64,000 nt of DNA, from contig CH672374.1 of the NCBI GenBank assembly GCA_000153385.1, forward strand, positions 1,207,198 through 1,271,197, written 5' to 3'. The DNA is from Flavobacteria bacterium BBFL7. Its GTDB lineage: Bacteria; Bacteroidota; Bacteroidia; Flavobacteriales; Flavobacteriaceae. Under the pieces are notes generated by a model. That model was not told where the DNA came from. It saw only the letters and a program-made list of their open reading frames with translations, and made no database searches. Positions 1,277-63,576 of this stretch are shown piece by piece. The translations under genes were made by a program, and so were the position numbers. Each line of letters starts with the position of its first letter. The stretch's first letter is position 1.

Positions 1277-2635
1277 TTATAGTGCTCTCACTGCATTTTT
1301 AAATTGTCTACCACGATCCTCATAATTTTCAAAAAGATCAAAACTAGCACAGGCAGGAGAAAGCAACACATTATCACCAGGTCCTGCTAATTTATACGCC
1401 ACTCGTACTGCATCTTCCATTGAAGAGGTCTCTACCATATTATCTACACAACCACTAAAAGCCTCGACAATTTTTGAATTATCATTTCCTAGACAAACTA
1501 TAGCCTTCACATTTTTATTAACCAGAGCAAACAAATCACTGTAATTGTTTCCTTTATCAACACCACCTACAATCCATACCGTAGGCTTCTCCATACTATC
1601 TAGAGCATAATATGTAGCATTCACATTAGTAGCCTTTGAGTCATTGATATACTGCACCTTATTAATTTTTAAAACCTGCTCAAGACGGTGCTCTACACCT
1701 TGAAAAGAAGCGAGACTTTGTCTTATTGTTTCTTTACGTATTTGAAGCAATTTTGCGGTAGTTGCTGCCGCCATCGCGTTTGCAGTATTATGTTGTCCTT
1801 TAATTGATAATTTTTGAATAGGCATAGTAAATAGGTTTGTGTCTAGGTTAATGTTGATCTGTTGGTCTTTTATAAAGGCTCCATATTCCAATGCCTGTTG
1901 CATAGAAAAAGGGACTAATTTTGATTTAGGCTTAAATTGAATTATAGCTTCTTGTATTGTTGGGTCATCAGCATTGTATATCAGAAAATCATTCTCATCT
2001 TGATTCATTGCAATGCGCATTTTACTTGCGACATAATTTTCAAATTTGTAATCATATCGGTCCAGATGATCTGGCGTGATGTTTAATAAAACAGCGACTT
2101 TAGGTTTAAAAGTTTTAATCCCATCTAATTGAAAACTACTTACTTCTAACACGCGGTATTCAGCAGGCGATTCTGCCACTTGTGCCGCATAGCTTTGTCC
2201 TATATTACCACCTATCGTGACGTCATAGTTGGCAATTTGAAGTATATGCCCTATCAAGCTTGTAACTGTAGTTTTACCATTACTTCCAGTTATTGCTATT
2301 TCTACTTCATCAGAAAATCTTGAAGCAAATTCGATCTCTGATATGACTGGAATATTTGCCTCTATAATCTTTTGTACTATTGTTGCGTTATCAGGTATTC
2401 CAGGACTTTTCACGACAACATCTGCGTTTAAAATTTGCTCGATATCATGTCCACCTGTTTCGTGCGGGATATGTTGATCTTGTAACGCTTTCGCGAAAGC
2501 GTCTTTTAAAACACCACCATCGCTTAAAAAAACATCATGCCCACGTTGAGTTGCTAGCATAGCGGCACCTACACCACTCATGCCACCACCTAATATGACG
2601 ACCCGTTTTTTGTTATTTATTCTCAGCCAGCTCAT
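1277..2635 (-). CDS. murD: MurD, UDP-MurNAc-L-alanine:D-glutamate ligase
   Basis: 452 residues, normal for the family. The N-terminal Rossmann segment has GGGMSGVG (residues 16-23). The ATP loop GSNGKTT is at 117-123, followed by NITPDHLDRY and, in the C-terminal domain, NDSKATN. The enzyme adds D-Glu to UDP-MurNAc-L-Ala in the cytoplasm. The ATG overlaps the mraY stop by one base (TAATG). Residues 46-50 (AFAKA) are encoded by a copy of the palindromic repeat at 2486-2501. It falls in a surface-type helix of the N-terminal domain that varies in the family, so function is probably unaffected. Confidence 0.96.
   Translation of the reverse strand: MSWLRINNKKRVVILGGGMSGVGAAMLATQRGHDVFLSDGGVLKDAFAKALQDQHIPHETGGHDIEQILNADVVVKSPGIPDNATIVQKIIEANIPVISEIEFASRFSDEVEIAITGSNGKTTVTSLIGHILQIANYDVTIGGNIGQSYAAQVAESPAEYRVLEVSSFQLDGIKTFKPKVAVLLNITPDHLDRYDYKFENYVASKMRIAMNQDENDFLIYNADDPTIQEAIIQFKPKSKLVPFSMQQALEYGAFIKDQQININLDTNLFTMPIQKLSIKGQHNTANAMAAATTAKLLQIRKETIRQSLASFQGVEHRLEQVLKINKVQYINDSKATNVNATYYALDSMEKPTVWIVGGVDKGNNYSDLFALVNKNVKAIVCLGNDNSKIVEAFSGCVDNMVETSSMEDAVRVAYKLAGPGDNVLLSPACASFDLFENYEDRGRQFKNAVRAL
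2486..2501. repeat. palindromic repeat copy 1 (in murD)
   Basis: Perfect 16-mer CGCTTTCGCGAAAGCG inside murD; encodes AFAKA at residues 46-50. Confidence 0.95.
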
Positions 2636-3870
2636 TATCTTACTTTCAGTGTTACAATGCTAATAATGGCCAGTAAAATCCCTACAATCCAGAATCTTAC
2701 AACAATTTTACTCTCGTGAATTCCTTTTTTCTGATAATGATGATGAAGTGGTGACATTAAGAAAATGCGTCTTCCTTCACCATATTTTTTCTTGGTATAC
2801 TTAAACCAACTCACCTGCATCATCACAGATAAGTTTTCCATTAAAAAGACTCCACAAAGTATAGGAATCAACAATTCTTTACGAGTTGCTATAGCAAGAA
2901 CAGCGATAATCCCACCTATAGTTAAACTACCCGTATCTCCCATAAAAACCTGTGCTGGGTAAGTGTTATACCATAAAAATCCAACTAACGATCCAGTGAA
3001 TGCAGTAATAAAAACTACCATTTCGCCAGAGTTAGGAATATACATGACGTTTAAATAATCTGAGAAAATAATGTTACCAGAGATCCATGCAAAAAGAGCT
3101 AACGTAATGACTGCAATTGCACTGGTTCCTGCAGCAAGACCGTCTATACCATCAGTAAGATTTGCTCCATTTGAAACGGCAGTAACTATAATAATAACTA
3201 TAGGTATAAATATTAACCATGCCCAAGATGCAAGACTAGGATCAATCCAGTCGATTAACGATGTGTATTCAAATTCATTATTTTTAAGAAAAGGAATGGT
3301 TGTTTTAGTAGATTGAATCGCTTCACCAAATGCAACTGGCAAATCTGTTCGATCCATTATTTCTTGAGCTATAACAGGATCTTTTATCTCTTCTTTAATG
3401 CTAATACCTGGATGAAAAAACATAGTTGCTCCAACAATAGCACCTAAACCAACCTGGCCTAATACCTTAAACTTCCCTTTTAATCCGTCTTTATCTTTTT
3501 TAAAGACTTTAATATAATCATCAGTAAAACCAATTAATCCCATCCATATAGTAGTGATAATTAATAAGACTACATAGATATTGTCTAGTTGTGACAACAA
3601 TAACACTGGTATAAGTGTAGCCATTATAATTATGACACCACCCATAGTAGGCGTTCCTGCTTTTTCTGACTGACCTTCTAAACCTAGATCTCTTACCGTT
3701 TCACCAACTTGCTGACGTTGTAGAAATTTTATAATACGTTTACCGTACACCGTAGAAATACCTAGAGACAGTAAAAAAGCAATGGCTGCTCTAAACGTAA
3801 TAAAACCAAACAATGATGCTCCAGGAAACTGGAACTGTTCTTCTAGATATTTAAATAAGTAGTATAACAT
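2635..3870 (-). CDS. mraY: MraY, phospho-MurNAc-pentapeptide transferase
   Basis: 411-residue polytopic membrane enzyme that makes lipid I from UDP-MurNAc-pentapeptide and undecaprenyl phosphate. Diagnostic motifs are GTPTMGG (72-78), the catalytic pair DD at 117-118, NLTDGIDGL (237-245), FMGDTGSL (309-316) and the cytoplasmic HHH at 376-378. It is about 50 residues longer than the E. coli enzyme, mostly because of an insertion around 155-210 between two membrane helices. I believe this is common in Bacteroidota. It sits 10 nt downstream of murE in the same transcript direction. Confidence 0.96.
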
Positions 3871-3880
3871 TTATGGTTGG

Positions 3881-5347
3881 TTATTTATTAAACTGTTTAA
3901 GTAAGTCTGCAACAATTAGGCGATCATTAAAGTCTGATCTCACACCATTAATCTCTTGATATGTTTCATGACCTTTACCAGCAATAAGGATGATGTCATT
4001 TTGTTGCGCCATTTGAACTGCTGTTTTTATGGCATTTTTACGATCTGTAACCGTTAGTGTTTTTTTAAAATCTATGGCCTCAACACCAGCTTCCATATCT
4101 TTTAGAATAGCATCAGGATTTTCAGTACGTGGATTATCACTTGTAAATATGATTAGGTCACTGAGCGATGCCGCGATATTTGCCATTACCGGCCTTTTAG
4201 ATTTATCTCTATCGCCTCCACATCCCACAACAGTAATTAATTTTTCATTACGGGTACGTATAGCATTTATAGTCTCTAATACATTCTTTAATGCATCAGG
4301 CGTATGCGCATAATCTACAATAGCAGTTATATGTTGGGCAGCTGTGGTGAAATACTGAAACCTTCCTGAAACACCATCTAACTGTGAAATGGCTTCTAAA
4401 ACCTCTGTAGATTCCAGCCCTAACTCAATAGCGCAACCATAAATAGCAAGAACATTATAGGCATTAAATTCACCTATCATCTTAGTCCACAACTCTTGAT
4501 TATTCACTTTTAATTGTAAACCACCAAATTGATTTTCAATAATTTGAGCTCTATAGTCCGTATATGTTTTTAATGCATAACCTAACTTGCGGGCTTTCGT
4601 ATTTTGCAACATAAACTCACCATTCTTATCATCGCGATTAGTTAATGCAAATGCATCTGAGGGCAACATATCAAAAAAACGCTTCTTGACATCTCGATAC
4701 TCAGCAAAAGTGTTGTGATAATCTAAGTGATCGTGAGTCAAATTTGTAAACATACCGCCTACAAAATGCAAACCTGTTATCCGTTGCTGGTCAATCCCGT
4801 GACTACTTACTTCCATAAAACAATAATCAACACCTGCGTCTCGCATAGCTGCTAGATGACTGTTTATAGTTACTGGATCTGGTGTCGTATGTTTGGTAGG
4901 TATAACTTTACCATCTATTAAAATCTCAACAGTCGAAATCAATCCTGTTTTAAACCCAAGTTTTTTAAATAGTTGATATAACAAACTAGTTGTCGTAGTC
5001 TTACCATTAGTTCCCGTGACACCAACTAATTTTAAATCTTTTGAAGGGTTATCATAGTAATTTGCCCCTATAAGTGCTAATGCTTTATGTGCATTATCAA
5101 CTTGTATATAAGTAACATGCTCTGCTTGATAATCCGGTAAGTCTTCTAGCAACACAGCAACAGCTCCACTCGCTACAGCTTTTTCGATAAATTGATGACC
5201 ATCGACTGCAGTTCCTTTAAGAGCTATAAAAACATCTCCTTTACGAATAGCTCTAGAATCAAACTGTACTTGTTCTACATCTATATCAGTAGGACCAATT
5301 ACCAACTCTAGGCTCACTTTATATAATAAGTCTTTTAAATTTCTCAT
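3881..5347 (-). CDS. murE: MurE, UDP-MurNAc-tripeptide ligase (meso-DAP type)
   Basis: 488 residues. The ATP loop TGTNGKTT is at 111-118 and THDHLDYH at 204-211. A lysine pair follows at the site usually carbamylated (DVKKRFF). DNPR at 404-407 is the motif associated with meso-diaminopimelate specificity rather than lysine. The product is therefore predicted to add meso-DAP to UDP-MurNAc-L-Ala-D-Glu, as expected for a Gram-negative wall. The start ATG overlaps the ftsI stop in an ATGA arrangement, indicating translational coupling. Confidence 0.96.
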   Translation of the reverse strand: MRNLKDLLYKVSLELVIGPTDIDVEQVQFDSRAIRKGDVFIALKGTAVDGHQFIEKAVASGAVAVLLEDLPDYQAEHVTYIQVDNAHKALALIGANYYDNPSKDLKLVGVTGTNGKTTTTSLLYQLFKKLGFKTGLISTVEILIDGKVIPTKHTTPDPVTINSHLAAMRDAGVDYCFMEVSSHGIDQQRITGLHFVGGMFTNLTHDHLDYHNTFAEYRDVKKRFFDMLPSDAFALTNRDDKNGEFMLQNTKARKLGYALKTYTDYRAQIIENQFGGLQLKVNNQELWTKMIGEFNAYNVLAIYGCAIELGLESTEVLEAISQLDGVSGRFQYFTTAAQHITAIVDYAHTPDALKNVLETINAIRTRNEKLITVVGCGGDRDKSKRPVMANIAASLSDLIIFTSDNPRTENPDAILKDMEAGVEAIDFKKTLTVTDRKNAIKTAVQMAQQNDIILIAGKGHETYQEINGVRSDFNDRLIVADLLKQFNK

Positions 5348-7335
5348 GATAGAGTTAATGTAATTTGATCATTAGTCTTTACTCGAGTTCCTGGTGCAGC
5401 ACTCTGCTCTTTAACTTTTCCCTTTCCTTTTAGCACTACTTTGGCTCCTAAATTTTCTAGTAACGTAATAGCATCCATAGCGTCCATTCCCTTTAAATTG
5501 GGTATCTTATTGGACGTAGATTGAGCTTGTGAATAAAAAGCTTCTTGTGATTTTATAATATCTGTTGTTGCTATTTGAGGTAACGGCACCTCATCTAGCA
5601 TTGGATTATTTGCATAAATCTTTTGAGCGATTTTTTTAAATACAGGACCAGCAACAATATTCCCATAGTAACCTTTGGCTGTATTAGGTTTATGTATTAC
5701 CACAATACAACTATACTTAGGCTTATCTGCCGGAAAATATCCTGCAAATGATGCTATGTATTCAAGCTTTTTATTTTTATCCCCATATCCTGTCTGACAG
5801 GTGCCTGTTTTACCAGCCATAGAAAAGCTTTCAGAATAAAGATTATCAGCAGTACCACGTTTCACGACATTTTCCATCATCACTTTAACTTTATCTACCG
5901 TTTCTTGAGAACAAATTGAAGGATTTAAAATACTGCGATCAAATCTTTCAATTAGCTGATCTTTAGAGCGCACTTCTCTTATTAAGCGAGGCTTAACCAT
6001 TACACCATTATTAGCAATAGCATTATAAAAAGTCAAGGTTTGCAAAGGCGTTAAATGCACTCCATAACCAAAAGCCATCCATGGTAAAGATGTACCGCTC
6101 CAGTGTTTATCCTCGGGATGTGGAATTCTAGGAACACCTTCACCAGTAATTGATAGATCTAATCTTTTATTTAATCCCATACTATATAGGCGATCAACAT
6201 ATCTAGCGCTTTGATCTTTACCTTTATAATTATCTGTAATCATTTGAACTAGAGCAGTATTAGAAGAAACCTCAAATGCTCTCGCAACACTTATCTTTCC
6301 GTAACCGCCATATTTAGAATCTTTTACATCACGCCCATAATATGAGATCTTCCCACCTCTAGTATCAAAGATGGTACTCGTATCCACCACCTTATCTTCT
6401 AGTGCTGCAACGACACTCATAAGTTTAAATGTAGATCCAGGCTCGTGTGATTCCCAAACCGCATAATTGCGCTTTTCAAAATATTTACCACTTTCTCCAC
6501 GACCTAGATTAGAAAGAGCTTTTATTTCTCCAGTAGCAACCTCCATAACGACAGCCGTTCCATGTTCTGCCTTAAAATACTCTAGTTGTTCTAGTAAAGC
6601 ATGATGGGCTACATCTTGCATATTGACATCTATGGTCGTGTAAACATCATATCCATCTTGTGGCTCAATCTCATTTGCACCACTAATAGGCTTCCATTGA
6701 TTTTGAGAAATTTTTTGTTTTTGACGCACTCCATTACTACCTCTCAAATGTTGAGAAAAAGCACCTTCTAAACCTACTGGCGCACTACCAGGTCGATCAT
6801 AGCCTACTATACGCTCTGCCATTTTACCTAATGGATGCTCTCTTACCACACGTTGCTCTACGATAATACCACCTCGATAAGGCCCTTTTCTAAAAAGAGG
6901 AAAAGACTTGATCTGTATATAATCGCTGTAGTTTAAATTTTTAGTTATTAGCAAATAACGATTACGGTTATTGCGAGCGGCACGTAATTTTTTTGTAAAA
7001 TATGATTTTGGACGGTTCAGCTTTCGCGAAAGCGAATCGCTTAAAGCCCCTATAAACTCATTAAAATCTGCCTCACTAGGTGCGATTGCATCAAATCTTA
7101 TATCATATTTTGAAATAGAAGTCGCAAGCAATTGCCCATTTGCATCATAAAGGTTACCACGATTTGCGGGAATGGTATCATTCTTAAAAATACGCTGCTC
7201 TGCTTTAGCACGGTATTTATCTCCATCAACAAATTGAATATTGATGATTTTTACAACAATACCTAGGGCAATGACTAAAAGCACTGCACCTACAATGTAG
7301 ATCCTATTCAGTATACTTTTTTCAGTTGTCGCCAT
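5344..7335 (-). CDS. ftsI: FtsI (PBP3), septal transpeptidase with PASTA domain
   Basis: 663 residues. One N-terminal membrane helix (about 10-32) is followed by a PBP dimerisation domain and a transpeptidase domain with the serine motif STFK (S301, K304), SSN (357-359) and KTGT (509-512). A single PASTA-like domain occupies about 605-663. It cross-links septal peptidoglycan in the periplasm, partnering FtsW and FtsL of this cluster. Residues 101-106 (SLSRKL) are encoded by the palindromic repeat at 7020-7033, in a different frame from most coding copies. The gene overlaps ftsL by 14 nt. Confidence 0.95.
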   Translation of the reverse strand: MATTEKSILNRIYIVGAVLLVIALGIVVKIINIQFVDGDKYRAKAEQRIFKNDTIPANRGNLYDANGQLLATSISKYDIRFDAIAPSEADFNEFIGALSDSLSRKLNRPKSYFTKKLRAARNNRNRYLLITKNLNYSDYIQIKSFPLFRKGPYRGGIIVEQRVVREHPLGKMAERIVGYDRPGSAPVGLEGAFSQHLRGSNGVRQKQKISQNQWKPISGANEIEPQDGYDVYTTIDVNMQDVAHHALLEQLEYFKAEHGTAVVMEVATGEIKALSNLGRGESGKYFEKRNYAVWESHEPGSTFKLMSVVAALEDKVVDTSTIFDTRGGKISYYGRDVKDSKYGGYGKISVARAFEVSSNTALVQMITDNYKGKDQSARYVDRLYSMGLNKRLDLSITGEGVPRIPHPEDKHWSGTSLPWMAFGYGVHLTPLQTLTFYNAIANNGVMVKPRLIREVRSKDQLIERFDRSILNPSICSQETVDKVKVMMENVVKRGTADNLYSESFSMAGKTGTCQTGYGDKNKKLEYIASFAGYFPADKPKYSCIVVIHKPNTAKGYYGNIVAGPVFKKIAQKIYANNPMLDEVPLPQIATTDIIKSQEAFYSQAQSTSNKIPNLKGMDAMDAITLLENLGAKVVLKGKGKVKEQSAAPGTRVKTNDQITLTLS
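7020..7033. repeat. palindromic repeat copy 2 (in ftsI)
   Basis: 14-bp core inside ftsI, read in the frame that gives LSRK. Confidence 0.95.
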
Positions 7336-7654
7336 CTTGCACTGCCGATTTAATAATTATTTTTTGTGGTGGATTTTTTGCAGGTGCAATTCCACGTTTT
7401 TTTAATTTACTAGCGATGGTTGATTCCATTTGTAAGAACATCAACTCTCGCTGACCATCCACATACTGACTGCGCAATTCATTTTCTTGCTCTGCCAGCT
7501 GCCCTATGTAATGTACTTTCTTCTCAAAACTATGCCCAGTATAGATCATAACTATAGATAGAAATACCGCAAAAATGATAAAACGCCAATTTTTGAACGC
7601 ATCATCATTAGTTAGGAAACTACCTTTCAATATGTCATAAACCTTAGACGCCAT
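7322..7654 (-). CDS. ftsL: FtsL-like septal membrane protein
   Basis: 110 residues: a short cytoplasmic start, one membrane helix (about 25-42) and a periplasmic segment rich in Glu, Gln and Leu that is likely coiled coil. The size, topology and place between rsmH and ftsI are those of FtsL, which scaffolds the FtsW-FtsI synthase. Sequence conservation in FtsL is weak, so the call rests mostly on architecture and gene order. It starts 2 nt after the rsmH stop. Confidence 0.85.
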   Translation of the reverse strand: MASKVYDILKGSFLTNDDAFKNWRFIIFAVFLSIVMIYTGHSFEKKVHYIGQLAEQENELRSQYVDGQRELMFLQMESTIASKLKKRGIAPAKNPPQKIIIKSAVQDGDN

Positions 7655-7656
7655 AC

Positions 7657-9013: not shown

Positions 9014-9032
9014 GCTTAATGAGTTATTGATT

Positions 9033-9040: not shown

Positions 9041-9051
9041 AAATTATTACT

Positions 9052-9280: not shown

Positions 9281-9288
9281 TATATTTG
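9281..9288 (+). promoter_or_regulatory. -7 promoter element of the alpha/beta hydrolase gene
   Basis: TATATTTG, a full match to TAnnTTTG, 22 nt before the ATG at 9311. No convincing -33 element. Confidence 0.5.
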
Positions 9289-11167: not shown

Positions 11168-11506
11168 TTATTTCTTCTTAAGCTCTAACTTCTCTGCAAA
11201 GTAATCACAAAAATCAATCATCGTATCTCTCATTTTATCATCGTTTGTAGCACGATGATAAGAGTCTGCCATTGAGACTAAGGTTTGATGAAAAAACACT
11301 CTCATTTCATCTACTGGCATATCTTTAGTCCATAAGTCAATACGAAAACTTTCTTTTTCAACAGAATCCCACATAGAAACCATCATCGCTTTAGCCTCTG
11401 CTCCGGTGACTCCACCATCTGGCGCACTCCATCTTATTTGTTCTGGAACGCGATTTTCATCAAGTTCTATTCCTATTTTTATTTCTGATCTATGATTTTG
11501 TGCCAT
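11168..11506 (-). CDS. gldC: GldC, gliding motility protein
   Basis: 112 residues, soluble and acidic, without a signal peptide, matching GldC of gliding flavobacteria in length and in its IRWSAPDGG and DYFAEKLELKKK segments. In Flavobacterium johnsoniae GldC improves but is not strictly required for gliding. It starts where gldB ends (shared base 11506), so the two form an operon. Confidence 0.88.
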   Translation of the reverse strand: MAQNHRSEIKIGIELDENRVPEQIRWSAPDGGVTGAEAKAMMVSMWDSVEKESFRIDLWTKDMPVDEMRVFFHQTLVSMADSYHRATNDDKMRDTMIDFCDYFAEKLELKKK

Positions 11507-12492
11507 TATTGTTTCGGTTTATATCCTGATTTATTAAAAATTACATCTGCCGGTAATGTTAGCATTGCGTCTAGTGGAGTTTCATTATTCTCCATGTAAG
11601 CCTTTATAATGCGATATCCTATATATTGACCTACTCCACCTGGAGTGTCTTGATCAACTTCTAGGTAAAATTTTGAAAACGGTGCTGGCAATATAAATCG
11701 CGATTGCAGCTTTGGATCCGTACTATAGAGAATGTTTTCATCTACAAAGAAACTCCACATTTCAGATTCATTAAATACTGTAAAATCATATTTATCTGGC
11801 GCATAGTTAAACAATTGCGCACCCGTTGATTGTGGCGCAAACAACTCTTGTAAATAATGCAATTTACCGTGATATACCATAGACCCTAATAATGTTCTAT
11901 CCATTGATGGTTGCACAAATAGATATGCATATGCCAGACCTACATCTGCAGGTAAATGACTTATTTGCAAACCTTCTTTTTGATACGTATTGATGCCTGC
12001 ATATAGTTCGTGATCCTTACCCAAGTATGTATCAATCGCGATTAATAATTGTGATTGAGTAGGTGTGACTTTACGTCTATAATCAACTTCAGATATAACG
12101 GTGATAATATCAGGTGTTTCAAACTCTGGAAAATAATATTCGACGTGCCTAAAGACATCATCTACATCATCATGTATCTTTTGAAAATCAAAATTGCGAT
12201 CATCGACTGCGTTTTCTAACACTGATTGAATTGTATCTGCTCCTGTCAATTTGGCTATCCAAACACTGTCTGCAAACCGTTGCGGGAACAACATAGGATA
12301 AGTTTGCTTTAAATGATCTAAATCATCAGGACCAGACTGAGCAAATTCCTCATGAAATAATTTAATTTCAGAATGGATAGGTATTGCAGCGATATCCTGT
12401 TCGACTTTTGATGAATCGTTGCAGGATGAGAGTATGAATAACGCTTTCGCGAAAGCGAGATATTTAAAACATCTGTAAATCTTATACTTCAT
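11506..12492 (-). CDS. gldB: GldB, gliding motility lipoprotein
   Basis: 328 residues. Lipoprotein signal peptide with lipobox ILSSC (C24). GldB is required for gliding and for T9SS function in flavobacteria; its pairing with gldC and divergence from nadE supports the call. Residues 13-17 (AFAKA) come from the palindromic repeat at 12442-12457, placing a lysine inside the hydrophobic part of the signal peptide. The start is the ATG downstream of the TATTTTTG promoter element at 12533-12540. Confidence 0.9.
   Translation of the reverse strand: MKYKIYRCFKYLAFAKALFILSSCNDSSKVEQDIAAIPIHSEIKLFHEEFAQSGPDDLDHLKQTYPMLFPQRFADSVWIAKLTGADTIQSVLENAVDDRNFDFQKIHDDVDDVFRHVEYYFPEFETPDIITVISEVDYRRKVTPTQSQLLIAIDTYLGKDHELYAGINTYQKEGLQISHLPADVGLAYAYLFVQPSMDRTLLGSMVYHGKLHYLQELFAPQSTGAQLFNYAPDKYDFTVFNESEMWSFFVDENILYSTDPKLQSRFILPAPFSKFYLEVDQDTPGGVGQYIGYRIIKAYMENNETPLDAMLTLPADVIFNKSGYKPKQ
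12442..12457. repeat. palindromic repeat copy 3 (in gldB)
   Basis: Perfect 16-mer; encodes AFAKA in the GldB signal peptide. Confidence 0.95.
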
Positions 12493-16204: not shown

Positions 16205-16220
16205 CGCTTTCGCGAAAGCG
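16205..16220. repeat. palindromic repeat copy 4 (intergenic)
   Basis: CGCTTTCGCGAAAGCG, perfect 16-mer (18 bp with flanking A/T). 53 nt past the stop of the barrel gene at 16273, just beyond its terminator. Confidence 0.95.
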
Positions 16221-19838: not shown

Positions 19839-19854
19839 CGCTTTCGCGAAAGCG
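19839..19854. repeat. palindromic repeat copy 5 (intergenic)
   Basis: Perfect CGCTTTCGCGAAAGCG between the fasciclin terminator and the ECF sigma gene, 63 nt past the fasciclin stop. Confidence 0.95.
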
Positions 19855-23640: not shown

Positions 23641-23655
23641 CGCTTTCGCGAAAGC
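23641..23655. repeat. palindromic repeat copy 6 (intergenic)
   Basis: Core GCTTTCGCGAAAGC at 23642-23655, 12 nt past the stop of the T9SS cargo gene. Confidence 0.95.
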
Positions 23656-28089: not shown

Positions 28090-28117
28090 TCATCTCGCTT
28101 TCGCGAAAGCGAGATGA
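28090..28117. repeat. palindromic repeat copy 7, extended to 28 bp
   Basis: The 16-mer (28096-28111) sits in a 28-bp perfect palindrome, the longest in the window, 15 nt past the acs stop. It could also serve as a 3' hairpin for the acs mRNA, although no T-run follows. Confidence 0.95.
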
Positions 28118-31966: not shown

Positions 31967-32332
31967 CTATGCACGTATTAAATGATCAACTGCTGTAACT
32001 AATTTTTTAACAGAAAAAGGCTTCGTGAAATACTGGTCAGCACCTAGCTTAAGACCTTTTTCTATATCTGCAGCTTTACTTTTTGCAGATAAGAATATGA
32101 CTTTCGCTTTCGCGAAAGCGGGATTACTTTTTATCATCTTAATGGTCTCATAACCATCTACCTGTGGCATCATGACATCTAGAATAACTAAATCAGGAAT
32201 CTCTCTTTCCATAATAACCAGCGCCTCACTTCCGTCACGAGCGATAAAAACTGAATATCCTTGCTTCTTAAATGCATATTCTAACGACATCACTATATTA
32301 GGTTCATCATCAACAATTAAAATCTTCTTCAT
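31967..32332 (-). CDS. single-domain response regulator (CheY-like)
   Basis: 121 residues, a receiver domain only: acid pair D8-D9, phospho-acceptor D52 (LVILDVMMP), and Lys in YFTKPFS. No DNA-binding domain, so the signal must pass to another protein. It starts 4 nt after the sensor kinase gene and is surely its partner. Residues 72-76 (AFAKA) are encoded by the palindromic repeat at 32105-32120, at the helix before beta-4 where the family tolerates variation. Confidence 0.9.
   Translation of the reverse strand: MKKILIVDDEPNIVMSLEYAFKKQGYSVFIARDGSEALVIMEREIPDLVILDVMMPQVDGYETIKMIKSNPAFAKAKVIFLSAKSKAADIEKGLKLGADQYFTKPFSVKKLVTAVDHLIRA
32105..32120. repeat. palindromic repeat copy 8 (in response regulator)
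   Basis: Perfect 16-mer; encodes AFAKA at residues 72-76 of the receiver protein. Confidence 0.95.
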
Positions 32333-37169: not shown

Positions 37170-37193
37170 ATTACGCTTTCGCGAAAGCGTAAT
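37170..37193. repeat. palindromic repeat copy 9, extended to 24 bp
   Basis: The 16-mer (37174-37189) is embedded in a 24-bp perfect palindrome between the DUF4212 gene and the symporter gene. Confidence 0.95.
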
Positions 37194-40303: not shown

Positions 40304-40319
40304 CGCTTTCGCGAAAGCG
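40304..40319. repeat. palindromic repeat copy 10 (intergenic)
   Basis: Perfect 16-mer (18 bp with A/T flanks), 34 nt past the stop of the barrel gene. Confidence 0.95.
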
Positions 40320-44361: not shown

Positions 44362-44376
44362 CGCTTTCGCGAAAGC
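44362..44376. repeat. palindromic repeat copy 11 (intergenic)
   Basis: Core GCTTTCGCGAAAGC at 44363-44376, 22 nt past the stop of the 44399 gene and upstream of the M16 gene. Confidence 0.95.
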
Positions 44377-45511: not shown

Positions 45512-45689
45512 ATTGCCCTAATTTTTTAGTATCAAATGAAATTAGCGTTCCTTCTTCAAAATCTACATGCAATTCTATGGGATTGCAACATACTTCACAA
45601 TCTTCTACATATGTCTGGCTGTATGCAGGATCTAATAACATAGATATCTCTTGCCAGCAATGTGGACACATGAAAAAGTGTTCTATCAT
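45510..45689 (-). CDS. small CPxCG-type cysteine-rich protein
   Basis: 59 residues: MIEHFFMCPHCWQEISMLL... with C8, C11, C31, C34 and C35, matching the small CPxCG-related zinc-ribbon family (here CPHCW). Probable zinc binding through C8/C11 and C31/C34. The ATG overlaps the TolC-type gene stop in an ATGA arrangement, so it is the last gene of the efflux operon. Easily missed because of its length. Function unknown. Confidence 0.82.
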   Translation of the reverse strand: MIEHFFMCPHCWQEISMLLDPAYSQTYVEDCEVCCNPIELHVDFEEGTLISFDTKKLGQ

Positions 45690-47053
45690 AAAGGCGTGTT
45701 TAAAATTTGACCTACTAGTTGTAGTAATTGATATTCAGCAAGCTTTGCATCATACTTTGCTAAGTTTTTAATAGTCACCGCATCCAGTAAATTAAGTTGG
45801 GCTTGCCTAAATTCAACACTACTTACTTGCCCTATTTTAAATTGTTCTTGGGTACGATTAAAATTATCATCATTAGTCAGTACATTTTGTTCTTGCATCC
45901 TATAAATCGCAAGTGCATTTTCATAATCACCTTTTGCATTTGCGATATCGCGCGCCACTTCTTGTTCTAGTTGACTTTTAAACAATGCTTCATTCTTATA
46001 AGCGATTTTGGCATTACGCAAATTATTGATAGTACTTCCACCGTCAAAAATATCCCATGTTAGATTTGCACCGACTGCAATATTTCCACTAGTTCTAGTG
46101 GTTGACGGGAAAAAGGCCGTGGCTGGATTTTCTGATTGATTCCAACCATAAGAACCACTTAAACCTATGCGCGGCAGTAGAAGTGCTTTTGTGGTTTTTA
46201 TATCATAATCACTGATTTGCAATGTACTTTCTGCTTGTAATAATCTTATATTATTCTGCTCTACTTTTTCTAAATAACTATCAATCATTAAGATATTTTG
46301 AAAGGTCACAGTTGTATCCACTGCATAAGACTCATTAAGATCACGATTTAATAATAAGTTTAAATCACGTTTTGTGTTGCGCAATTGCTGTCTTGCGTTT
46401 AGTAGATTAATACTATCTGCATTAATGTCAACTCGTGCATTTAAGACCTCTAATTTATTAACCTGTCCAAAATCAAATTGATACTGTGCGCGCTGCTCGC
46501 GTTGTTTAGAAATCTGTAAGTTTTCTTGAAAAATTTTCTCATTTTCTGTAAGTCGTGCTATTTCTAAGTAAACACTCATTAATTGGACAGTGGTCGTTTC
46601 TATCGTAGATTTTACCTGTAATTGACTCAGTTGATATTGTTCTTTCAGTCTTTTATAATTGTACAATCTACCCAATCCGTCAAATAGTGTATAGCTTAAT
46701 GATAAGCCTGCATTATACTGTGTAGTTTGCGCATTATTAATCTCAATATCTGTACGAGGCACACCATTATCATCTAGGGCACCATTAAAATCGGTTTTAG
46801 AATCATCCTCATCGATAGAGGCTCCTGCAGTTCCCTGTAAGCTTGGTAAATACCCAGAATTGAGTACACTTGTATTATTTTCGGCTATAAGCTCAGAGTT
46901 TTTTGCGATCTGTATATCGTAATTATTTGCTAGCATAAGCTCTACAGCCTGCTCACGAGTCAATAAAGAGGCATCTGGTTGCTGTGCATACGCTTTCGCG
47001 AAAGCGAAATACACCAAAGCAATTAGGCCATATAAAATTTTATGCTTCATCAT
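45686..47053 (-). CDS. TolC-family outer membrane efflux protein
   Basis: 455 residues with a signal peptide ending AYA-Q (cleavage after about 23) and two outer-membrane-efflux-protein repeats of long coiled helices. It forms the outer membrane channel for the RND pump encoded upstream, which it overlaps by 14 nt. Residues 17-21 of the signal peptide (AFAKA) come from the palindromic repeat at 46991-47006; this puts a lysine close to the cleavage site. Confidence 0.93.
   Translation of the reverse strand: MMKHKILYGLIALVYFAFAKAYAQQPDASLLTREQAVELMLANNYDIQIAKNSELIAENNTSVLNSGYLPSLQGTAGASIDEDDSKTDFNGALDDNGVPRTDIEINNAQTTQYNAGLSLSYTLFDGLGRLYNYKRLKEQYQLSQLQVKSTIETTTVQLMSVYLEIARLTENEKIFQENLQISKQREQRAQYQFDFGQVNKLEVLNARVDINADSINLLNARQQLRNTKRDLNLLLNRDLNESYAVDTTVTFQNILMIDSYLEKVEQNNIRLLQAESTLQISDYDIKTTKALLLPRIGLSGSYGWNQSENPATAFFPSTTRTSGNIAVGANLTWDIFDGGSTINNLRNAKIAYKNEALFKSQLEQEVARDIANAKGDYENALAIYRMQEQNVLTNDDNFNRTQEQFKIGQVSSVEFRQAQLNLLDAVTIKNLAKYDAKLAEYQLLQLVGQILNTPL
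46991..47006. repeat. palindromic repeat copy 12 (in TolC-type gene)
   Basis: Perfect 16-mer; encodes AFAKA in the signal peptide. Confidence 0.95.
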
Positions 47054-51504: not shown

Positions 51505-53430
51505 TTAGAATTTATCTAGCTGCTCAGAGACATCTTCCCATTTTGTCATCCATTCGTCTAATGCTTTCTTCTTTGCTTGGTAAGCATCAAAAAACCCTGG
51601 TTTTGCAGCCAGCTCATCATAATTAGCTGCTAGCTCTTGATCTAATTTTTTAATTTCTCGCTCTAAGTTATTGATTTCGGCTTCTGCTTTGGAAAGTCTA
51701 TTATTTAATGACTTTTGCTTCTTTTGATCTTCATAAGAAAGCTGCTTCTTTTCTGTTTCTTGCTTTCGCGAAAGCGGATCAACTTTAGCCTCAGTAACTT
51801 TTTCTATCTCTCGCATATCTTGAGCCTTGCGTTGTTGAAGGTAATAGTCTATATCACCTAAATGCAAGTTTAATTTATGATCACGGAATTCATAAACAAC
51901 ATCGGTAAGGCCTTGCAAAAATTCTCTATCGTGTGACACAACGATAAGTGTTCCATCAAATTTAAGTAGAGCTGCCTTTAAAACATTTTTAGATTGTATA
52001 TCTAGGTGGTTAGTAGGCTCATCCATGATCAACACATTAAATGGCTGCAATAGCAATTTACAAAGCGCTAATCGATTGCGTTCACCACCACTTAATACTT
52101 TTACCTTTTTTTCTGCCTCATCACCACGAAATAAGAAAGAACCTAACATATCACGTACCTTAACACGGTTACTATCGTCAGCAGCATCTATCATTATATC
52201 CAAGACCGTTTTTTCACCATCTAAATATTCTGCTTGATTCTGTGCAAAGTACCCTAACTGTACATTATGACCTAAGTTAACCGTTCCTGTGGAATCGTTT
52301 ATATCACCTACAATAATTTTAGCTAGAGTAGATTTCCCCATTCCATTTTGCCCTACAAAAGCTACTCGAGAACCACGTTCTATCATTAAATCGACCTCGC
52401 TCAGTACTTTTTTCTCACCGTAAGACTTGCTTACCTTATCAATTTCTAAAACCACTTTACCAGGCTGTATAGATTTTGCAAAGTTGATATTCATCGCAGC
52501 GTTATCGGTTTGTTCAATCTCCACCACATCCATGCGATTCAACTTTTTAACCAGTGATTGAGCCATGGTAGCCTTACTTGCTTTAGCTTTAAATTTTTGA
52601 ATAAGCTTCTCAGTACGTTCAATCTCTTTTTGCTGATTTTTAAAGGTTGCCTCTTGTTGCTCGCGCATCTCTGCTCTTAATGCTAGAAACTGTGTATATG
52701 GTTTTGGGTAATCATATATACGACCTAAACTAATTTCTATGGTACGATTAGTCACATTATCCAAAAACATTTTATCGTGACTTACAATAACAACAGCTCC
52801 AGGATATGTCTGTAAGAATTGCTCTAACCATAAAATAGAATCGATATCTAAGTGGTTTGTAGGCTCATCGAGTAATAAGATGTCGTGGTTCTCTAATAAG
52901 AGTTTTGCAAGCTCAATACGCATGCGCCATCCACCAGATAGCTCATCAGTAAGCATCCCAAACTGCTCTGGCTTAAAAGCTAATCCCTTTAAGATCTTTT
53001 CTGTTTCTCCTTTGTATTGGTATCCTCCTATAATCTCATATTCATGAGTTAATGTACTCATGTCCTCAATAAGCTTTGAGTAAGAATCAGATTCATAATC
53101 AGTTCTTTCAGCTAATTGAATATTTATTTGATCCAGCTCTGCTTCTATTTCTCTCGCTTTCGCGAAAGCGGTATAAGCTTCTTCTAGAACGGTACGTCCT
53201 TTCTCAAAATCAATATCCTGTCGTAAGAAACCAATGCTCGTACCTTTTTCCATGGCAAGTTGACCTTGATCATACTCAATATCACCAGCGATGACTTTTA
53301 ATAAAGTAGATTTACCAGCACCATTTTTACCTATTAAACCTACACGATTCCCACCATTAAGTCTAAAAGTAATTTCTTCAAAAAGTGGCTCGCCGCCAAA
53401 ACTAACATGTAAATCGTGAATATTGAGCAT
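51505..53430 (-). CDS. ABC-F family ATPase (Uup/YdiF-like)
   Basis: 641 residues, two ABC domains without membrane helices. Walker A GKNGAGKST (34-42) and GQNGMGKST in the second half; signatures ELSGGW and LSGGERNRL; Walker B LLLDEPTNHLD and LIMDEPTNHLD. The C-terminal coiled coil (about 565-641) is Uup-like. ABC-F proteins act on ribosomes. It carries two palindromic repeats: 53155-53170 encoding AFAKA (88-92) and 51762-51775 encoding LSRK in the linker to the coiled coil. Confidence 0.93.
   Translation of the reverse strand: MLNIHDLHVSFGGEPLFEEITFRLNGGNRVGLIGKNGAGKSTLLKVIAGDIEYDQGQLAMEKGTSIGFLRQDIDFEKGRTVLEEAYTAFAKAREIEAELDQINIQLAERTDYESDSYSKLIEDMSTLTHEYEIIGGYQYKGETEKILKGLAFKPEQFGMLTDELSGGWRMRIELAKLLLENHDILLLDEPTNHLDIDSILWLEQFLQTYPGAVVIVSHDKMFLDNVTNRTIEISLGRIYDYPKPYTQFLALRAEMREQQEATFKNQQKEIERTEKLIQKFKAKASKATMAQSLVKKLNRMDVVEIEQTDNAAMNINFAKSIQPGKVVLEIDKVSKSYGEKKVLSEVDLMIERGSRVAFVGQNGMGKSTLAKIIVGDINDSTGTVNLGHNVQLGYFAQNQAEYLDGEKTVLDIMIDAADDSNRVKVRDMLGSFLFRGDEAEKKVKVLSGGERNRLALCKLLLQPFNVLIMDEPTNHLDIQSKNVLKAALLKFDGTLIVVSHDREFLQGLTDVVYEFRDHKLNLHLGDIDYYLQQRKAQDMREIEKVTEAKVDPLSRKQETEKKQLSYEDQKKQKSLNNRLSKAEAEINNLEREIKKLDQELAANYDELAAKPGFFDAYQAKKKALDEWMTKWEDVSEQLDKF
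51762..51775. repeat. palindromic repeat copy 13 (in ABC-F gene)
   Basis: 14-bp core; read in the frame giving LSRK, in the linker before the C-terminal coiled coil. Confidence 0.95.
53155..53170. repeat. palindromic repeat copy 14 (in ABC-F gene)
   Basis: Perfect 16-mer; encodes AFAKA at residues 88-92. The only gene in the window with two copies. Confidence 0.95.
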
Positions 53431-55882: not shown

Positions 55883-55900
55883 ATCTCTTTTTTTCAATAA

Positions 55901-57439: not shown

Positions 57440-57487
57440 AATATTCTAATTAGCTGTTATTAATAGTTTTATAATAATTATTGCTAA

Positions 57488-58147: not shown

Positions 58148-58187
58148 TTTAATAAGGGTTTAGTTAAGTTAGTAGTTAAATTTTATT

Positions 58188-59555: not shown

Positions 59556-59670
59556 AAGGGTGTTTTATGTTTTCTTTATGAATTAAGGCCGTAAACCTAT
59601 CTAAAATATATATATCTGGCAACTTTTTTTTACCAAATAAATTTAGTTTGACAAATTACGTATTAATACG

Positions 59671-60831
59671 CTATACTTCATTCTTTCTTCTCGCTTTTAA
59701 CCATCTTTCTGGCAAATTTTGATCACATGCCAGTTCATAATCTTTACGAGTACAAGGTAATAACGTCTGTTGTTTTAGTTTATTATTAACATTTGAAAGA
59801 AATGGCAATTCAATCCACCATCTCCCAGTTTTATTAGATTTATAGAAGGTTAATACCTCATCCTCAATCGGTACGCGATACTTTAAACATTCATTTCCTA
59901 CATCAATCGGATGTTCACCTGCTCTATAATTATAGCCTTCTATAAAGTACCATATCATTTCTGCAATGAGTTGTGAACCTGTTACACTCGCATCATTTGG
60001 AATTTCAAAAATGCCAAAAACTTGAGTTCGATCACTTATACCTGCATATCTCGATAAACTACAAATTTGCTTCCCACTGAGACCGTTTGGATTCGCTTTC
60101 GCGAAAGCGGTATCGCCGGCTTTTACAACAGCCATATCAATGCCTACTACATCTGCATCACGCATTACCGGCTCTGCTAGCCTCATATCATCATCTAGAA
60201 CACCTAATCGAGTTGCGTCAAAATACATGCGCTCTAAAAGCTCTATTTCATCCTGACTATTAAAATAGGTCTGGAACCCAAGATTACTATAGTTAAAAAG
60301 GTTATAAGGCTGATCTGCCACCATTTTACCTACATAACTTCTTGAGCTAATAGGCATCTCAATATCTCCAATATCAAACCTACAATCTACATTAACGACA
60401 TTAATCATGTATTTAATCTCGTCAAATGCTCTATATATAGGATACATCAAGTCCTGACTACCACCTAAATATATTGGAATAATATCCTTTTTTAAAAACG
60501 CTGTAGTTAATTGCTGTAAAACATAATATGTATCCTCTACACTGTCGCCGGGATATATATCGCCCATGTCCACAATATCGAGTGCCCAGTTACCTGGATA
60601 AAGCTCATAGAATTGTTTCCTAGCTTGGTCTACGTTCTTAATTTGCAGCAAGGCATTTTCATCACGGCGATTCTCTAACACACCTACCAACACCATTTGC
60701 ACTCCTGTTAACTGAGGCAAACCTGTATGAGCCGTATGAATTTTAATTACATTCCCTATAGCATGTTGCGGTTGTAACATAGCATGCGCTTGCACCTCAT
60801 CACTTACCGGTTTTAAAAACTCAAATGCCAT
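59671..60831 (-). CDS. arginase-fold protein lacking metal ligands
   Basis: 386 residues of the arginase/agmatinase/formimidoylglutamase fold, but metal-binding signatures are changed. GGDHS is GGSQD here, DAHxD is DCRFD, and SxDxDxxDP is IDMAVVKAGDT. Three or more manganese ligands are gone, so ureohydrolase activity is unlikely. It starts 6 nt after topA and is followed after 115 nt by gldK, suggesting a link to secretion/gliding or to the topA transcript. Residues near 242-246 (AFAKA) come from the palindromic repeat at 60094-60109. Confidence 0.78.
   Translation of the reverse strand: MAFEFLKPVSDEVQAHAMLQPQHAIGNVIKIHTAHTGLPQLTGVQMVLVGVLENRRDENALLQIKNVDQARKQFYELYPGNWALDIVDMGDIYPGDSVEDTYYVLQQLTTAFLKKDIIPIYLGGSQDLMYPIYRAFDEIKYMINVVNVDCRFDIGDIEMPISSRSYVGKMVADQPYNLFNYSNLGFQTYFNSQDEIELLERMYFDATRLGVLDDDMRLAEPVMRDADVVGIDMAVVKAGDTAFAKANPNGLSGKQICSLSRYAGISDRTQVFGIFEIPNDASVTGSQLIAEMIWYFIEGYNYRAGEHPIDVGNECLKYRVPIEDEVLTFYKSNKTGRWWIELPFLSNVNNKLKQQTLLPCTRKDYELACDQNLPERWLKARRKNEV
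60094..60109. repeat. palindromic repeat copy 15 (in arginase-fold gene)
   Basis: Perfect 16-mer; encodes AFAKA near residue 242. Confidence 0.95.
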
Positions 60832-60837
60832 AGAAAA

Positions 60838-63363
60838 TTACTTCTTTGTCGTTTTTTTCTTTGTTGCTGGCTTCTTTTTTGCCGCTGTCTTTTTCTTTGC
60901 AGCAGCTTTTTTCTTAGGAGCCTTTTTCTCAATTAATTCTTTTGCCTTATCTAATGTAATAGAAAGAGGATCAATCGTTTTTGCCAACTCAACTTTGGTT
61001 TTACCTTTAATAATATTATGGCGTCCCCATCGAGCTTTTTCAATTCTAATCCCTTCTTCTTCCCAATCAACGATAAGTTTATCCTTTTCTTTCTGGATCT
61101 TATCCTTAATTAATTGTTCAATATCATCATTTGAAAGATTATCAAAATCATATTTTTTATTGACAGATATAAACATTCCAGACCATTTAATAAACGGCCC
61201 GAAACGACCTACACCTTTAGTAACTGGCTGCTCATCATACATATATATAGGAGCATCTGCTTTTTCCTTTTGTTGAATTAACTCTGAAGCTCTTTCAAAA
61301 GTAAGAGTCATAGGGTCATCTCCATCTTCAAGAGACACAAACGTTTTCTCATTGAATTTTACATATGGACCAAAACGCCCTTGATTCACCTCTACTGGAA
61401 AGCCGTTATATTCACCAACTGTTCTAGGCAGCTTAAACAAATCCATCACCTCTTCTAAGGTTATGGTATTTAATGACTGTGATGGCAATAAACTCGCAAA
61501 TTGTGGTTTCTCTTCATCTTCTACTGTACCTATCTGAGCCATCGCACCAAAACGCCCTAATCGCACACTGATAGGCTTACCTGTTTTAGGATCTGTACCC
61601 AGCACGCGCTCGCCGACTTCTCGCTCTGCATTTTCTGCAACGTCCTTTACTGTAGGATGAAAGTCTTTATAAAAGTGGTTCATCATGTCTGTCCACTCCT
61701 CTTTCCCTTCAGCGATATTATCAAATGACTCTTCTACCTTTGCTGTAAAGTTATAATCTAGCACATTACTGAAATGCTCTACTAAAAAATCGTTTACTAC
61801 TCTACCAACGTCAGTAGGTATTAACTTACCTTTATCAGAGCCAGTTTTCTCAGTCAGCTCATTTTCTTTAATATCATCATTAGATAGCACTAACTGCACA
61901 TATCCACGCTCCTCACCTAGAGAAGCTCCTTTTTCAATATATTTTCTATTCTGTATCGTTGTTATGGTAGGCGCATATGTAGATGGTCTACCTATACCTA
62001 ATTCTTCTAACTGTTTTACTAATGAAGCTTCAGTAAACCTATATGGTGGCCTAGTAAATCGTTCTGTGGCTGTAATCTTTTTATTCAATAAATCTTGACC
62101 TATTGATAATGCAGGTAGCAATCCTTGCTGCTCAAGATCTTCATCATCAGTACTTTCCAAATAGACCTTCAAAAACCCTTCAAACTTGACGATTTCTCCA
62201 CTTGCTGTAAAGTTTTTATCGTGCGTGTTTGCGCTTATTGACACATTAGTACGTTCAAGTTTTGCATCGCTCATCTGACTAGCAATGGCACGTTTCCATA
62301 TCAAATCATAAAGACGTGTTTGATCCCTATCTAATCCTGCACTATGTACAGCAAAATCTGTAGGTCTTATCGCTTCGTGAGCCTCTTGTGCTCCTTTAGA
62401 TTTCCCTTTATAATTACGTTCCTTGTGGAACTTTGCACCATAAGCACTTTCAATTTCTGCTTGAGCACCTTTTTTAGCTTCATTACTTAAATTAACAGAG
62501 TCTGTTCTCATGTAGGTTATTAAACCAGCCTCATACAAACGCTGCGCAAGCTGCATTGTACGGCTTACATTAAAAAACAACTTACGAGAAGCTTCTTGCT
62601 GTAAAGTAGATGTGGTAAATGGTGGCGCTGGACTTTTAGAAGCAGGCTTTTTCACTAAGTCTGCAACCTCAAACTGAGCTCCTTTATTTAATGCAAGAAA
62701 ATTTTGAGCCTCTTTAAGTGAGTTTAAATTCCCTGGTAATTTTGCTTTTAACAGACTTCCATCTTTTGTAGTAAAATCTGCATCTATTCTAAAAAAGTTA
62801 TCACTTTTAAAATTGATTATTTCATTCTCGCGCTCTACAATTAATCGTACAGCTACAGATTGAACACGACCGGCACTTGCTCCACCTTTAACTTTTCTCC
62901 ATAATATAGGAGAGATTTCATAACCTACAATTCGATCAAGAATTCTACGTGCTTGTTGAGCATTAACCAGATCATAATCGATCTGACGTGGATTCTCTAT
63001 TGCTTTTTGAATGGCGCTTTTTGTAATGGCATTAAAAACGATACGTTTTGTTTTATCCTTTTTAAGATCTAACTGCTCTGCAAGGTGCCATGCAATAGCT
63101 TCTCCTTCTCGATCCTCATCACTTGCTAGCCACACCATTTCAGAATCGGCAGCCATTTTCTTTAGCTTCTTAACCAGATCCTTTTTATCTGAACTAACAA
63201 TATATTTAGGATTAAAGTCATCATCTACATCTACACCTAGTTCCTTTGCAGGAAGGTCAGCAATATGACCAAAACTAGACGCCACTTTATAGTCTTTACC
63301 TAAGAATTTTTCTATGGTTTTTGCCTTTGCCGGCGACTCTACTATTACAAGATTCTTTGCCAT
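60838..63363 (-). CDS. topA: DNA topoisomerase I
   Basis: 841 residues. Toprim domain at the start (LVIVESPAKAKTIEKFLG and SDEDREGEAIAWHL), the catalytic tyrosine in the GLITYMRTDSVNLS segment, zinc-less C-terminal repeats (GRFGPYVKFNEKTFVSLEDG and similar) and a Lys/Ala tail of about 28 residues. It relaxes negative supercoils. Its promoter is at 63386-63418. Confidence 0.96.
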   Translation of the reverse strand: MAKNLVIVESPAKAKTIEKFLGKDYKVASSFGHIADLPAKELGVDVDDDFNPKYIVSSDKKDLVKKLKKMAADSEMVWLASDEDREGEAIAWHLAEQLDLKKDKTKRIVFNAITKSAIQKAIENPRQIDYDLVNAQQARRILDRIVGYEISPILWRKVKGGASAGRVQSVAVRLIVERENEIINFKSDNFFRIDADFTTKDGSLLKAKLPGNLNSLKEAQNFLALNKGAQFEVADLVKKPASKSPAPPFTTSTLQQEASRKLFFNVSRTMQLAQRLYEAGLITYMRTDSVNLSNEAKKGAQAEIESAYGAKFHKERNYKGKSKGAQEAHEAIRPTDFAVHSAGLDRDQTRLYDLIWKRAIASQMSDAKLERTNVSISANTHDKNFTASGEIVKFEGFLKVYLESTDDEDLEQQGLLPALSIGQDLLNKKITATERFTRPPYRFTEASLVKQLEELGIGRPSTYAPTITTIQNRKYIEKGASLGEERGYVQLVLSNDDIKENELTEKTGSDKGKLIPTDVGRVVNDFLVEHFSNVLDYNFTAKVEESFDNIAEGKEEWTDMMNHFYKDFHPTVKDVAENAEREVGERVLGTDPKTGKPISVRLGRFGAMAQIGTVEDEEKPQFASLLPSQSLNTITLEEVMDLFKLPRTVGEYNGFPVEVNQGRFGPYVKFNEKTFVSLEDGDDPMTLTFERASELIQQKEKADAPIYMYDEQPVTKGVGRFGPFIKWSGMFISVNKKYDFDNLSNDDIEQLIKDKIQKEKDKLIVDWEEEGIRIEKARWGRHNIIKGKTKVELAKTIDPLSITLDKAKELIEKKAPKKKAAAKKKTAAKKKPATKKKTTKK

Positions 63364-63385
63364 TCAGATTTGAATTTTTGGAATG

Positions 63386-63418
63386 CAAAGGTATGCGTAT
63401 TTTTTTTTAATCCTGCAA
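63386..63418 (-). promoter_or_regulatory. promoter of topA
   Basis: Minus strand TTTTG-type -33 (TTG at 63418-63416), 22-nt spacer, TACCTTTG (63393-63386), 22 nt before the ATG. Confidence 0.55.
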
Positions 63419-63561
63419 AAGTCTAATTACCAATTAATTAAAGATTTAAATAAATACACAATACGTTCACTATCGGCAGGTTATATATTAAAGACGGCAT
63501 ACAGCAGCATAAAAATTAAAATTAATAATAAGGTAAATGAACAATTAGATAATGGAGTATA

Positions 63562-63576
63562 CGCTTTCGCGAAAGC
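63562..63576. repeat. palindromic repeat copy 16 (intergenic)
   Basis: Core GCTTTCGCGAAAGC at 63563-63576 in the divergent topA-miaB gap; the only intergenic copy not placed after a stop codon. Confidence 0.95.

Follow-up and report, generated by a model that had tools for sequence, protein, structure and literature searches.

A 14-bp palindrome conserved in place along Nonlabens chromosomes: a candidate uptake-type self-DNA signal in the Flavobacteriaceae

Background

Why does one 14-bp perfect palindrome, GCTTTCGCGAAAGC, occur 16 times letter for letter in 64 kb of a bacterial chromosome? The question is raised by a stretch of the 3.10-Mb genome of Flavobacteria bacterium BBFL7 (contig CH672374.1, positions 1,207,198 to 1,271,197), here called the window; its genome is labelled G000 in comparisons. 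A sequence-only reading of the window had taken the copies to be actively maintained, not the remains of a decaying mobile element, and had named as possible functions a nucleoid, segregation or repair site, a methylation-associated motif such as HIP1, and a self-uptake signal. It proposed counting the word across the chromosome and in related genera, and looking for a gradient between origin and terminus (ori/ter). Here we report that the sites are abundant throughout a genus, tend to be held in position between its genomes and avoid each other at short range, and we tentatively favour the explanation that the palindrome is a lineage-specific self-DNA signal resembling uptake sequences, to which we give a little less than an even chance.

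Results

All 16 copies were found at the positions first read, 11 of them within the full 16-mer CGCTTTCGCGAAAGCG, and the two extended copies proved to be perfectly palindromic over 28 bp (28090-28117) and 24 bp (37170-37193). The chance expectation originally put at about 0.0002 copies was right in being tiny, with Markov models of order 1 to 4 giving even less (1.1e-4 to 4e-6), and 100 dinucleotide shuffles of the window yielded a mean of 0.18 and a maximum of 2 matches at up to two mismatches. At the same tolerance, the window itself contained nothing besides the 16 exact copies. The claim that there are no near-miss copies held for the window and failed for the genome, which has 551 exact copies (none of the reversed motif, used as control), 645 with at most one mismatch (control 0) and 691 with at most two (control 16). 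Of the sites in a 344-kb sample around the window, 66 were exact, 11 had one mismatch and 5 had two, and sub-words of the palindrome were the top-ranked 8-, 10- and 12-mers of this sample. The mean spacing along the chromosome is about one site per 4-5 kb.

Loci from named Nonlabens match the window over 8 kb at 82% identity and G540, of the same genus, at 80%, and for this reason we take the genus to be Nonlabens. All 23 Nonlabens genomes searched were motif-rich, with 421-930 sites at up to one mismatch (reversed control 0-3). Among 249 genomes of the family five were rich (G000 551 copies, G010 578, G242 664, G190 408 and G206 857), the other 244 having 0-17 copies each, and in a class-wide draw of 295 genomes the word was matched in 16, none of which had more than 4 copies apart from G000 itself. 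A scan of named genomes with the 24-bp extended form returned at least 116 stretches (41 from Nonlabens and 75 from Dokdonia), with no other genus among the matches listed, and G206 may be a Dokdonia. The proposed counts thus showed a word that is abundant in its own genome, across its own genus and in two further sampled genera.

A TopA tree of 33 rows places the rich ones so that three changes are required: Nonlabens clusters with the motif-poor G087, G007 and G053, and G206 with the rich G190 and with G144, the sister of G190. One gain followed by losses and two gains both fit this tree. G144 has 9 exact copies, yet 86 matches at up to two mismatches versus 20 in the control, the pattern that decay following a loss would leave, though a metal-resistance island (see below) accounts for some of the exact copies. 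A symmetric variant, GCTTCCGCGGAAGC, has 9 copies in G053 and 1-3 in 22 other genomes. In G053, placed with G007 close to Nonlabens on the tree, it is weakly over-represented and may be a dialect or a relic; with 9 copies it is weak as a dialect, and was set aside as such.

The sites are under position-specific constraint, and hold their positions even though the neighbouring DNA drops to about 75% identity. When high-scoring segment pairs (HSPs) no shorter than 250 bp and no more than 90% identical were compared, the motif 14-mers were identical in 8 of 10 aligned cases for G242 and 6 of 8 for G010, against a background of 4.6% and 3.2% of all 14-mers, respectively, in the same alignments. 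At up to one difference, 13 of the 16 sites were kept in the first G000-to-G242 alignment, and the stricter alignment gave 12/15 from G000 to G242, 8/11 from G000 to G010, and 14/14 from G010 to G242 (at 87% identity). Between genera, conservation was found for 2/4 sites from Dokdonia loci to G000 and 1/1 from Dokdonia loci to G206, and for none from G190 to G000 (0/3), G000 to G190 (0/2), G000 to G206 (0/1) and G190 to G206 (0/1).

The second regularity lies in the spacing. Gaps in the window range from 1.4 to 6.9 kb, with a coefficient of variation (CV) of 0.30 against a simulated mean of 0.91, and none of 20,000 simulations was as even. Set against the surrounding 344 kb (CV 0.63), the window is unusual for its clean and even array of sites, and over longer stretches of G206 and G540 the CV reached 0.93 and 0.92; such overall values are unremarkable because long gaps raise them. 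In the 344 kb of G000 none of the 76 gaps was below 1394 bp, whereas random placement gave a mean of 20.7 such gaps and never fewer than 8, the largest minimum gap over 2000 random runs being 449 bp. G540, sampled over 418 kb with 93 exact sites listed, had 6 of its 92 gaps below 1394 bp, including two of 223 and 270 bp, where 24.0 were expected and never fewer than 11 obtained in 5000 runs. Pairs closer than 1.5 kb numbered 3 against 46.7 expected in the Nonlabens set (G000, G242, G010 and 41 Nonlabens loci), 18 against 46.1 in the Dokdonia loci, 3 against 7.2 in G206 and 1 against 2.7 in G190, with minimum gaps of 986 bp in G242, 249 bp in G206 and the above 223 bp in G540. Close pairs are therefore rare, not forbidden. 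Genes at two close G540 pairs were considered as candidates for an autoregulated reader gene and were uninformative: one, part of a histidine cluster, encodes imidazoleglycerol-phosphate dehydratase, and the other a DUF7192 protein.

Site numbers in 22 stretches of G540 (106 in 432 kb overall) followed no trend with chromosomal position, ori and ter not being located. Close pairs had been the reason for choosing two of the stretches; the other 20, placed by position, together had 94 sites over 400 kb, with a mean of 4.7 and a variance of 2.3 per 20 kb, a scatter smaller than Poisson. One 20-kb stretch (G540:C4:78001-98000) holds ten sites, double the average, and histidine-biosynthesis genes. 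The sparsest G540 region (280-320 kb) has 3 sites in 32 kb and the lowest GC content of those sampled. In G000 the largest unmasked gap is 16 kb and spans ribosomal-protein, secY, rpoA and enolase genes; a larger gap of 18.9 kb is inflated by 8.56 kb of masked N (G000:C2:1295984-1304543). A pattern that would fit depletion from constrained genes and recent acquisitions was seen in one operon and one low-GC G540 region.

A flank profile was built from 226 Nonlabens and 114 Dokdonia/G206 sites, after stripping the named loci of the extended form that had served as query. Preferences were symmetric, with C at position -1 in 91% of the Nonlabens and 86% of the Dokdonia/G206 sites, T favoured at -3 and -4, and a shortage of C extending to about -18; Nonlabens also favoured T at -10 (61%) and -13 (56%), Dokdonia less so (42% and 48%). 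Complementarity between left and right flanks was close to that expected from letter frequencies, the top excess in Nonlabens being at -2 (0.45 vs 0.36). The Nonlabens profile was alike whether sites were intergenic (54) or coding (135), and was not seen in 1456 random intergenic windows. Since the flanks are symmetric and add little base pairing, the natural reader would be a protein with a reach of about 50 bp and not a longer hairpin. This symmetric signal, extending some 18 bp past the 14-mer on each side, had escaped the sequence-only reading, as had the even spacing in the window and the near-misses elsewhere in the genome. The half-sites CTTTCG/CGAAAG are depleted outside the Nonlabens sites, which follows from a general depletion of CGAA/TTCG outside the motif: this is 2-3 fold in Nonlabens (observed/expected 0.35-0.50 in the 344 kb of G000, G242, G010, G540 and the loci), against ratios of 0.76 in the Dokdonia loci and 0.87 in G190. 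Half-site avoidance was therefore rejected as a separate feature and left out of the mechanism.

The core of the word resembles a methylase site, and by analogy with cyanobacterial HIP1 (PMC4390886; this and the other papers cited by PMC number are drawn on as excerpts) the palindrome could be kept by an orphan DNA methyltransferase acting on CGCG or TCGCGA. TCGCGA outside the sites occurs at expectation (19 vs 19.8), the recognition is much longer than a methylase site, and no PF00145 C5-methylase was found in the rich G242 and G190, with unequal numbers in the other rich genomes. The HIP1-like link to a C5-methylase, the only methylase class examined, is refuted by these two genomes, and we consider maintenance by a methyltransferase in general very improbable.

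The perfect dyad and the symmetric footprint with little extra pairing are what a homodimeric chromosome-organising, repair or replication-associated protein would call for, binding sites every 4-5 kb as loop anchors, for loading of sliding clamps or as repair marks. If such a protein spread over or bridged kilobases, a nearby second site would be redundant, in line with the avoidance of close pairs, and the strict conservation, the absence of a trend along the chromosome and the presence of sites on some phage contigs would also be accommodated. Against it stand the neighbouring genera on the TopA tree that lack the word, the site-free 16-kb ribosomal-protein cluster, a hole that an architectural mark should fill, and the fact that no candidate protein was found. 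An additional ParB or Noc was rejected, as exactly one ParB was present in each of the five rich genomes tested; its helix-turn-helix segment in the rich G206 and G190 equals that of poor genomes, and is slightly different in Nonlabens. A segregation or nucleoid site in the sense of matS or Noc, as first suggested, is weakened by the single ParB and by the lack of a chromosomal trend, and a chromosome-organising role of any of these kinds, the foremost competitor of the reading favoured here, appears to us somewhat unlikely.

Placement relative to genes was assessed with a simple open reading frame (ORF) picker. In five genomes the intergenic share was 25-45%, against a baseline of 8-12%, with 55-75% of sites within genes; only 1 of 21 intergenic sites in G000 was in a convergent gap. 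These figures bear on the idea of a small mobile or transcribed palindromic element (REP- or MITE-like) or a terminator hairpin, which the high copy number and the palindromy might suggest. Against it stand the genic majority of the sites and the single site in a convergent gap; the flank letters pair little beyond what their frequencies predict, and T upstream with A downstream is the reverse of an intrinsic terminator. In the five non-conserved orthologous alignments the word was never absent as a unit (0/5), internal gaps being 0-2 letters. On these alignments, placement and flanks a mobile repeat or terminator was rejected as scarcely credible, with target duplications and transposases not searched for. 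The first judgement of active maintenance is borne out by the kept positions, by the word never being missing as a unit and by the richness of every genome searched in the genus.

Within genes frame 0 is preferred: 75 of 126 coding sites in the Nonlabens samples were in this frame, where they encode Ala-Phe-Ala-Lys-Ala (AFAKA). There were 23 frame-0 sites in the first 45 codons, where 9.3 were expected, and 17 of these 23 resemble signal peptides as judged by eye, some of them being orthologues. In the gene for an outer-membrane efflux protein (OEP; window 45686-47053) the site is at the same place in G000, G242, G010, G540 and also G190, and the OEP gene of the metal-resistance islands likewise has a site in its signal peptide. 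The between-genus BLAST alignments had overlooked this OEP site common to Nonlabens and G190. Here and in other secreted-protein genes a constraint at the DNA level has placed AFAKA in the signal peptide, close to where cleavage is expected.

ORFs of at least 150 aa contain seven of the 16 window sites. Site 1 (2487..2500; 16-mer 2486-2501) is an exact 14-mer within the murD ORF 1277-2635(-), and site 2 (7020..7033) lies in the 5' part of a penicillin-binding-protein ORF, 5344-7335(-), where G242 is alignable and the word is absent. Site 3 (12443..12456, a 16-mer) encodes AFAKA close to the start of gldB, 11506-12492(-), a gene that indicates a gliding-type bacteroidete, and site 12 (46992..47005, a 16-mer) does so in the signal-peptide region of the OEP gene, 45686-47053(-). 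Sites 13 (51762..51775) and 14 (53156..53169, a 16-mer) share ORF 51505-53430(-) and are both kept in G242; for site 15 (60095..60108, a 16-mer), in ORF 59671-60831(-), G242 is alignable and the word has been lost by substitutions with no indel. No ORF of this size covers the 16-mer sites 4 (16206..16219), 5 (19840..19853), 8 (32106..32119) and 10 (40305..40318), or sites 6 (23642..23655), 11 (44363..44376) and 16 (63563..63576). The 28-bp palindrome is site 7, with its 14-mer at 28097-28110, and the 24-bp palindrome is site 9, with its 14-mer at 37175-37188.

In motif-poor genera many sites are concentrated in islands, which where annotated (G078 and G087) carry genes for an RND pump, a multicopper oxidase, a P-type ATPase, an OEP and membrane-fusion proteins. 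Islands of seven further genera align to these two, making nine Flavobacteriaceae genera in all. The set comprised 16 loci from ten genomes, picked for carrying sites, of which G026 yielded no alignment. Of 158 directed comparisons across different hosts (covering 30 distinct sites, in HSPs of at most 90% identity), 92 found the island site identical, at a mean identity of 76% and against 3.9% of random 14-mers. Judging from these alignments, the islands probably evolved mostly where the reader acts and were then exported. In this island family (L047-L059, L061 and L368) one pair of the conserved sites is 933 bp apart, a spacing also present in G073 and G076.

The related phages P12024S and P12024L (L333 and L334), which infect Nonlabens (Persicivirga), have no site in 71 kb. 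Each of them also has no GGCC (91-98 expected), 4 CCGG (61-67 expected) and 18-20 CGCG (85-88 expected), an avoidance pointing to restriction systems in their hosts. Two viral contigs, L082 (with a terminase) and L168 (with a major head protein), have two sites each in 12-13 kb; as they were found through their sites, they establish at least two site-bearing contigs with phage structural genes, and no rate can be derived from them. Phages are thus not uniformly motif-free. We downgraded the absence from P12024S and P12024L as evidence, given both their avoidance of CGCG, GGCC and CCGG and the sites on other phage contigs. This affects the possibility of a Chi-like mark, at which a helicase-nuclease would halt degradation and start recombination, so that self DNA is spared and foreign DNA destroyed. 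A site every 4-5 kb across the chromosome would serve such a mark, and the two site-free phages were the other point in its favour; their lack of sites may instead reflect restriction, and the word, a palindrome of 14-16 bp whose flank preferences reach +/-18 bp, differs from the short, directional Chi. We consider a Chi-like role improbable.

Discussion

From the positional constraint, the avoidance of close pairs, the footprint of about 50 bp and the spread we infer a reader and a purpose, and among the functions proposed by the sequence-only reading the best match is the self-uptake signal. The reader would be a DNA-binding receptor, dimeric or of higher order and perhaps belonging to the Flavobacteriaceae transformation machinery, with a preference for fragments that have at least one full site. 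Recombination of the imported DNA would, by molecular drive, spread and repair sites. With one site per fragment being sufficient, another one less than about 1.5 kb away would bring little, and we propose that this is why close pairs are avoided and the mean spacing is 4-5 kb. Lineages that no longer have the reader, perhaps including G144, would retain scattered and mostly degenerate copies. Known uptake sequences are evenly spaced, are in excess between genes with many nevertheless in ORFs, and are depleted from new DNA and constrained genes (PMC1939737, PMC7811141). A machinery for transformation that includes unfamiliar proteins of the outer membrane and surface has been described mainly from Flavobacteriaceae (PMC8459023), to which a role of TonB in transformation was added (PMC8383284), and Riemerella columbina prefers self DNA, with no proven word in the available excerpt (PMC7965970). 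In its full form the proposal is of a palindromic self-DNA mark, to our knowledge the first uptake-type signal in Bacteroidota, that is read by a Flavobacteriaceae machinery instead of a type IV pilus receptor, rewrites signal peptides into AFAKA and brands exported metal islands; this we regard as possible, and on balance rather doubtful.

Several observations weigh against an uptake signal. Known uptake sequences are not palindromic (PMC1939737, in the part available), unlike the perfect palindrome at the core here, and a long palindrome suits an ordinary homodimeric DNA-binding protein equally well; indeed a strongly selected intracellular site would give all the comparative features too. 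The sites on viral contigs L082 and L168 are not predicted by uptake drive, and close pairs are not wholly avoided, since G540 has gaps of 223 and 270 bp and G206 has one of 249 bp. No gene for a receptor came to light, Riemerella-type homologues not having been searched for, and the one locus scanned as a candidate for the Riemerella outer-membrane/DUF5689 pair (L243) contained no DUF5689. Among the literature matches listed, none dealt with competence in Nonlabens or Dokdonia.

A text search of the literature found no paper with the 14-mer or its 12-mer, the 10 papers with the 10-mer were unrelated by title, and among the 15 matches listed of 199 for the 8-mer none concerned these genera by title. 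Topical searches likewise gave no description of the word by title among the matches listed, and the excerpts of PMC3478194 and PMC5217627 do not mention it.

If the word is an uptake signal, a textbook phenomenon would extend to a new phylum with a different machinery, and the word would serve as a marker for following exported genes, as on the islands of nine motif-poor genera; as an architectural site, it would be a dense and strictly conserved mark of a bacterial chromosome. Selection or drive keeps it letter-perfect, even inside proteins, across a whole marine genus and its kin. Motif-poor lineages that adjoin rich ones in the TopA tree (G144 next to G190, G087 next to Nonlabens) offer a clean comparison in which to look for the reader gene.

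Of the known systems, matS/MatP, NBS/Noc, SBS/SlmA and parS/ParB have sites that are 13-16 bp palindromes bound by homodimers, and parS and NBS share TTTC...GAAA arms with the word described here, in which the arm spacing is 2 bp shorter than in parS. All these sites have far fewer copies than the 551 found here, and our word shows neither a trend along the chromosome nor an extra ParB. Chi in E. coli has a similar density of about one per few kb, but Chi-type signals are short and direction-dependent, whereas our word is much longer and, being palindromic, has no polarity. The uptake signal sequences (USS) of Pasteurellaceae have A/T-rich flanks beyond the core, as seen here. HIP1 (GCGATCGC) of cyanobacteria is, like our word, a highly iterated perfect palindrome found across the chromosome (PMC4390886), but has 8 bp against 14-16 bp here, where moreover close pairs are avoided and two rich genomes lack a C5-methylase. 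The USS and the DNA uptake sequences (DUS) of Neisseriaceae differ from our word, for which an uptake role is a proposal, in that ours belongs to Bacteroidota and is perfectly palindromic, its symmetric footprint covering about 50 bp; its density is one per 4-5 kb, against about 1 kb for USS (PMC7811141). As here, USS and DUS have hundreds to thousands of near-perfect copies, evenly spaced and in excess between genes with many in ORFs. They are also sparse in new DNA and constrained genes (PMC1939737, PMC7811141), a trait that one operon and one low-GC region would fit here, and in both cases atypical distributions reveal mobile elements (PMC7371117).

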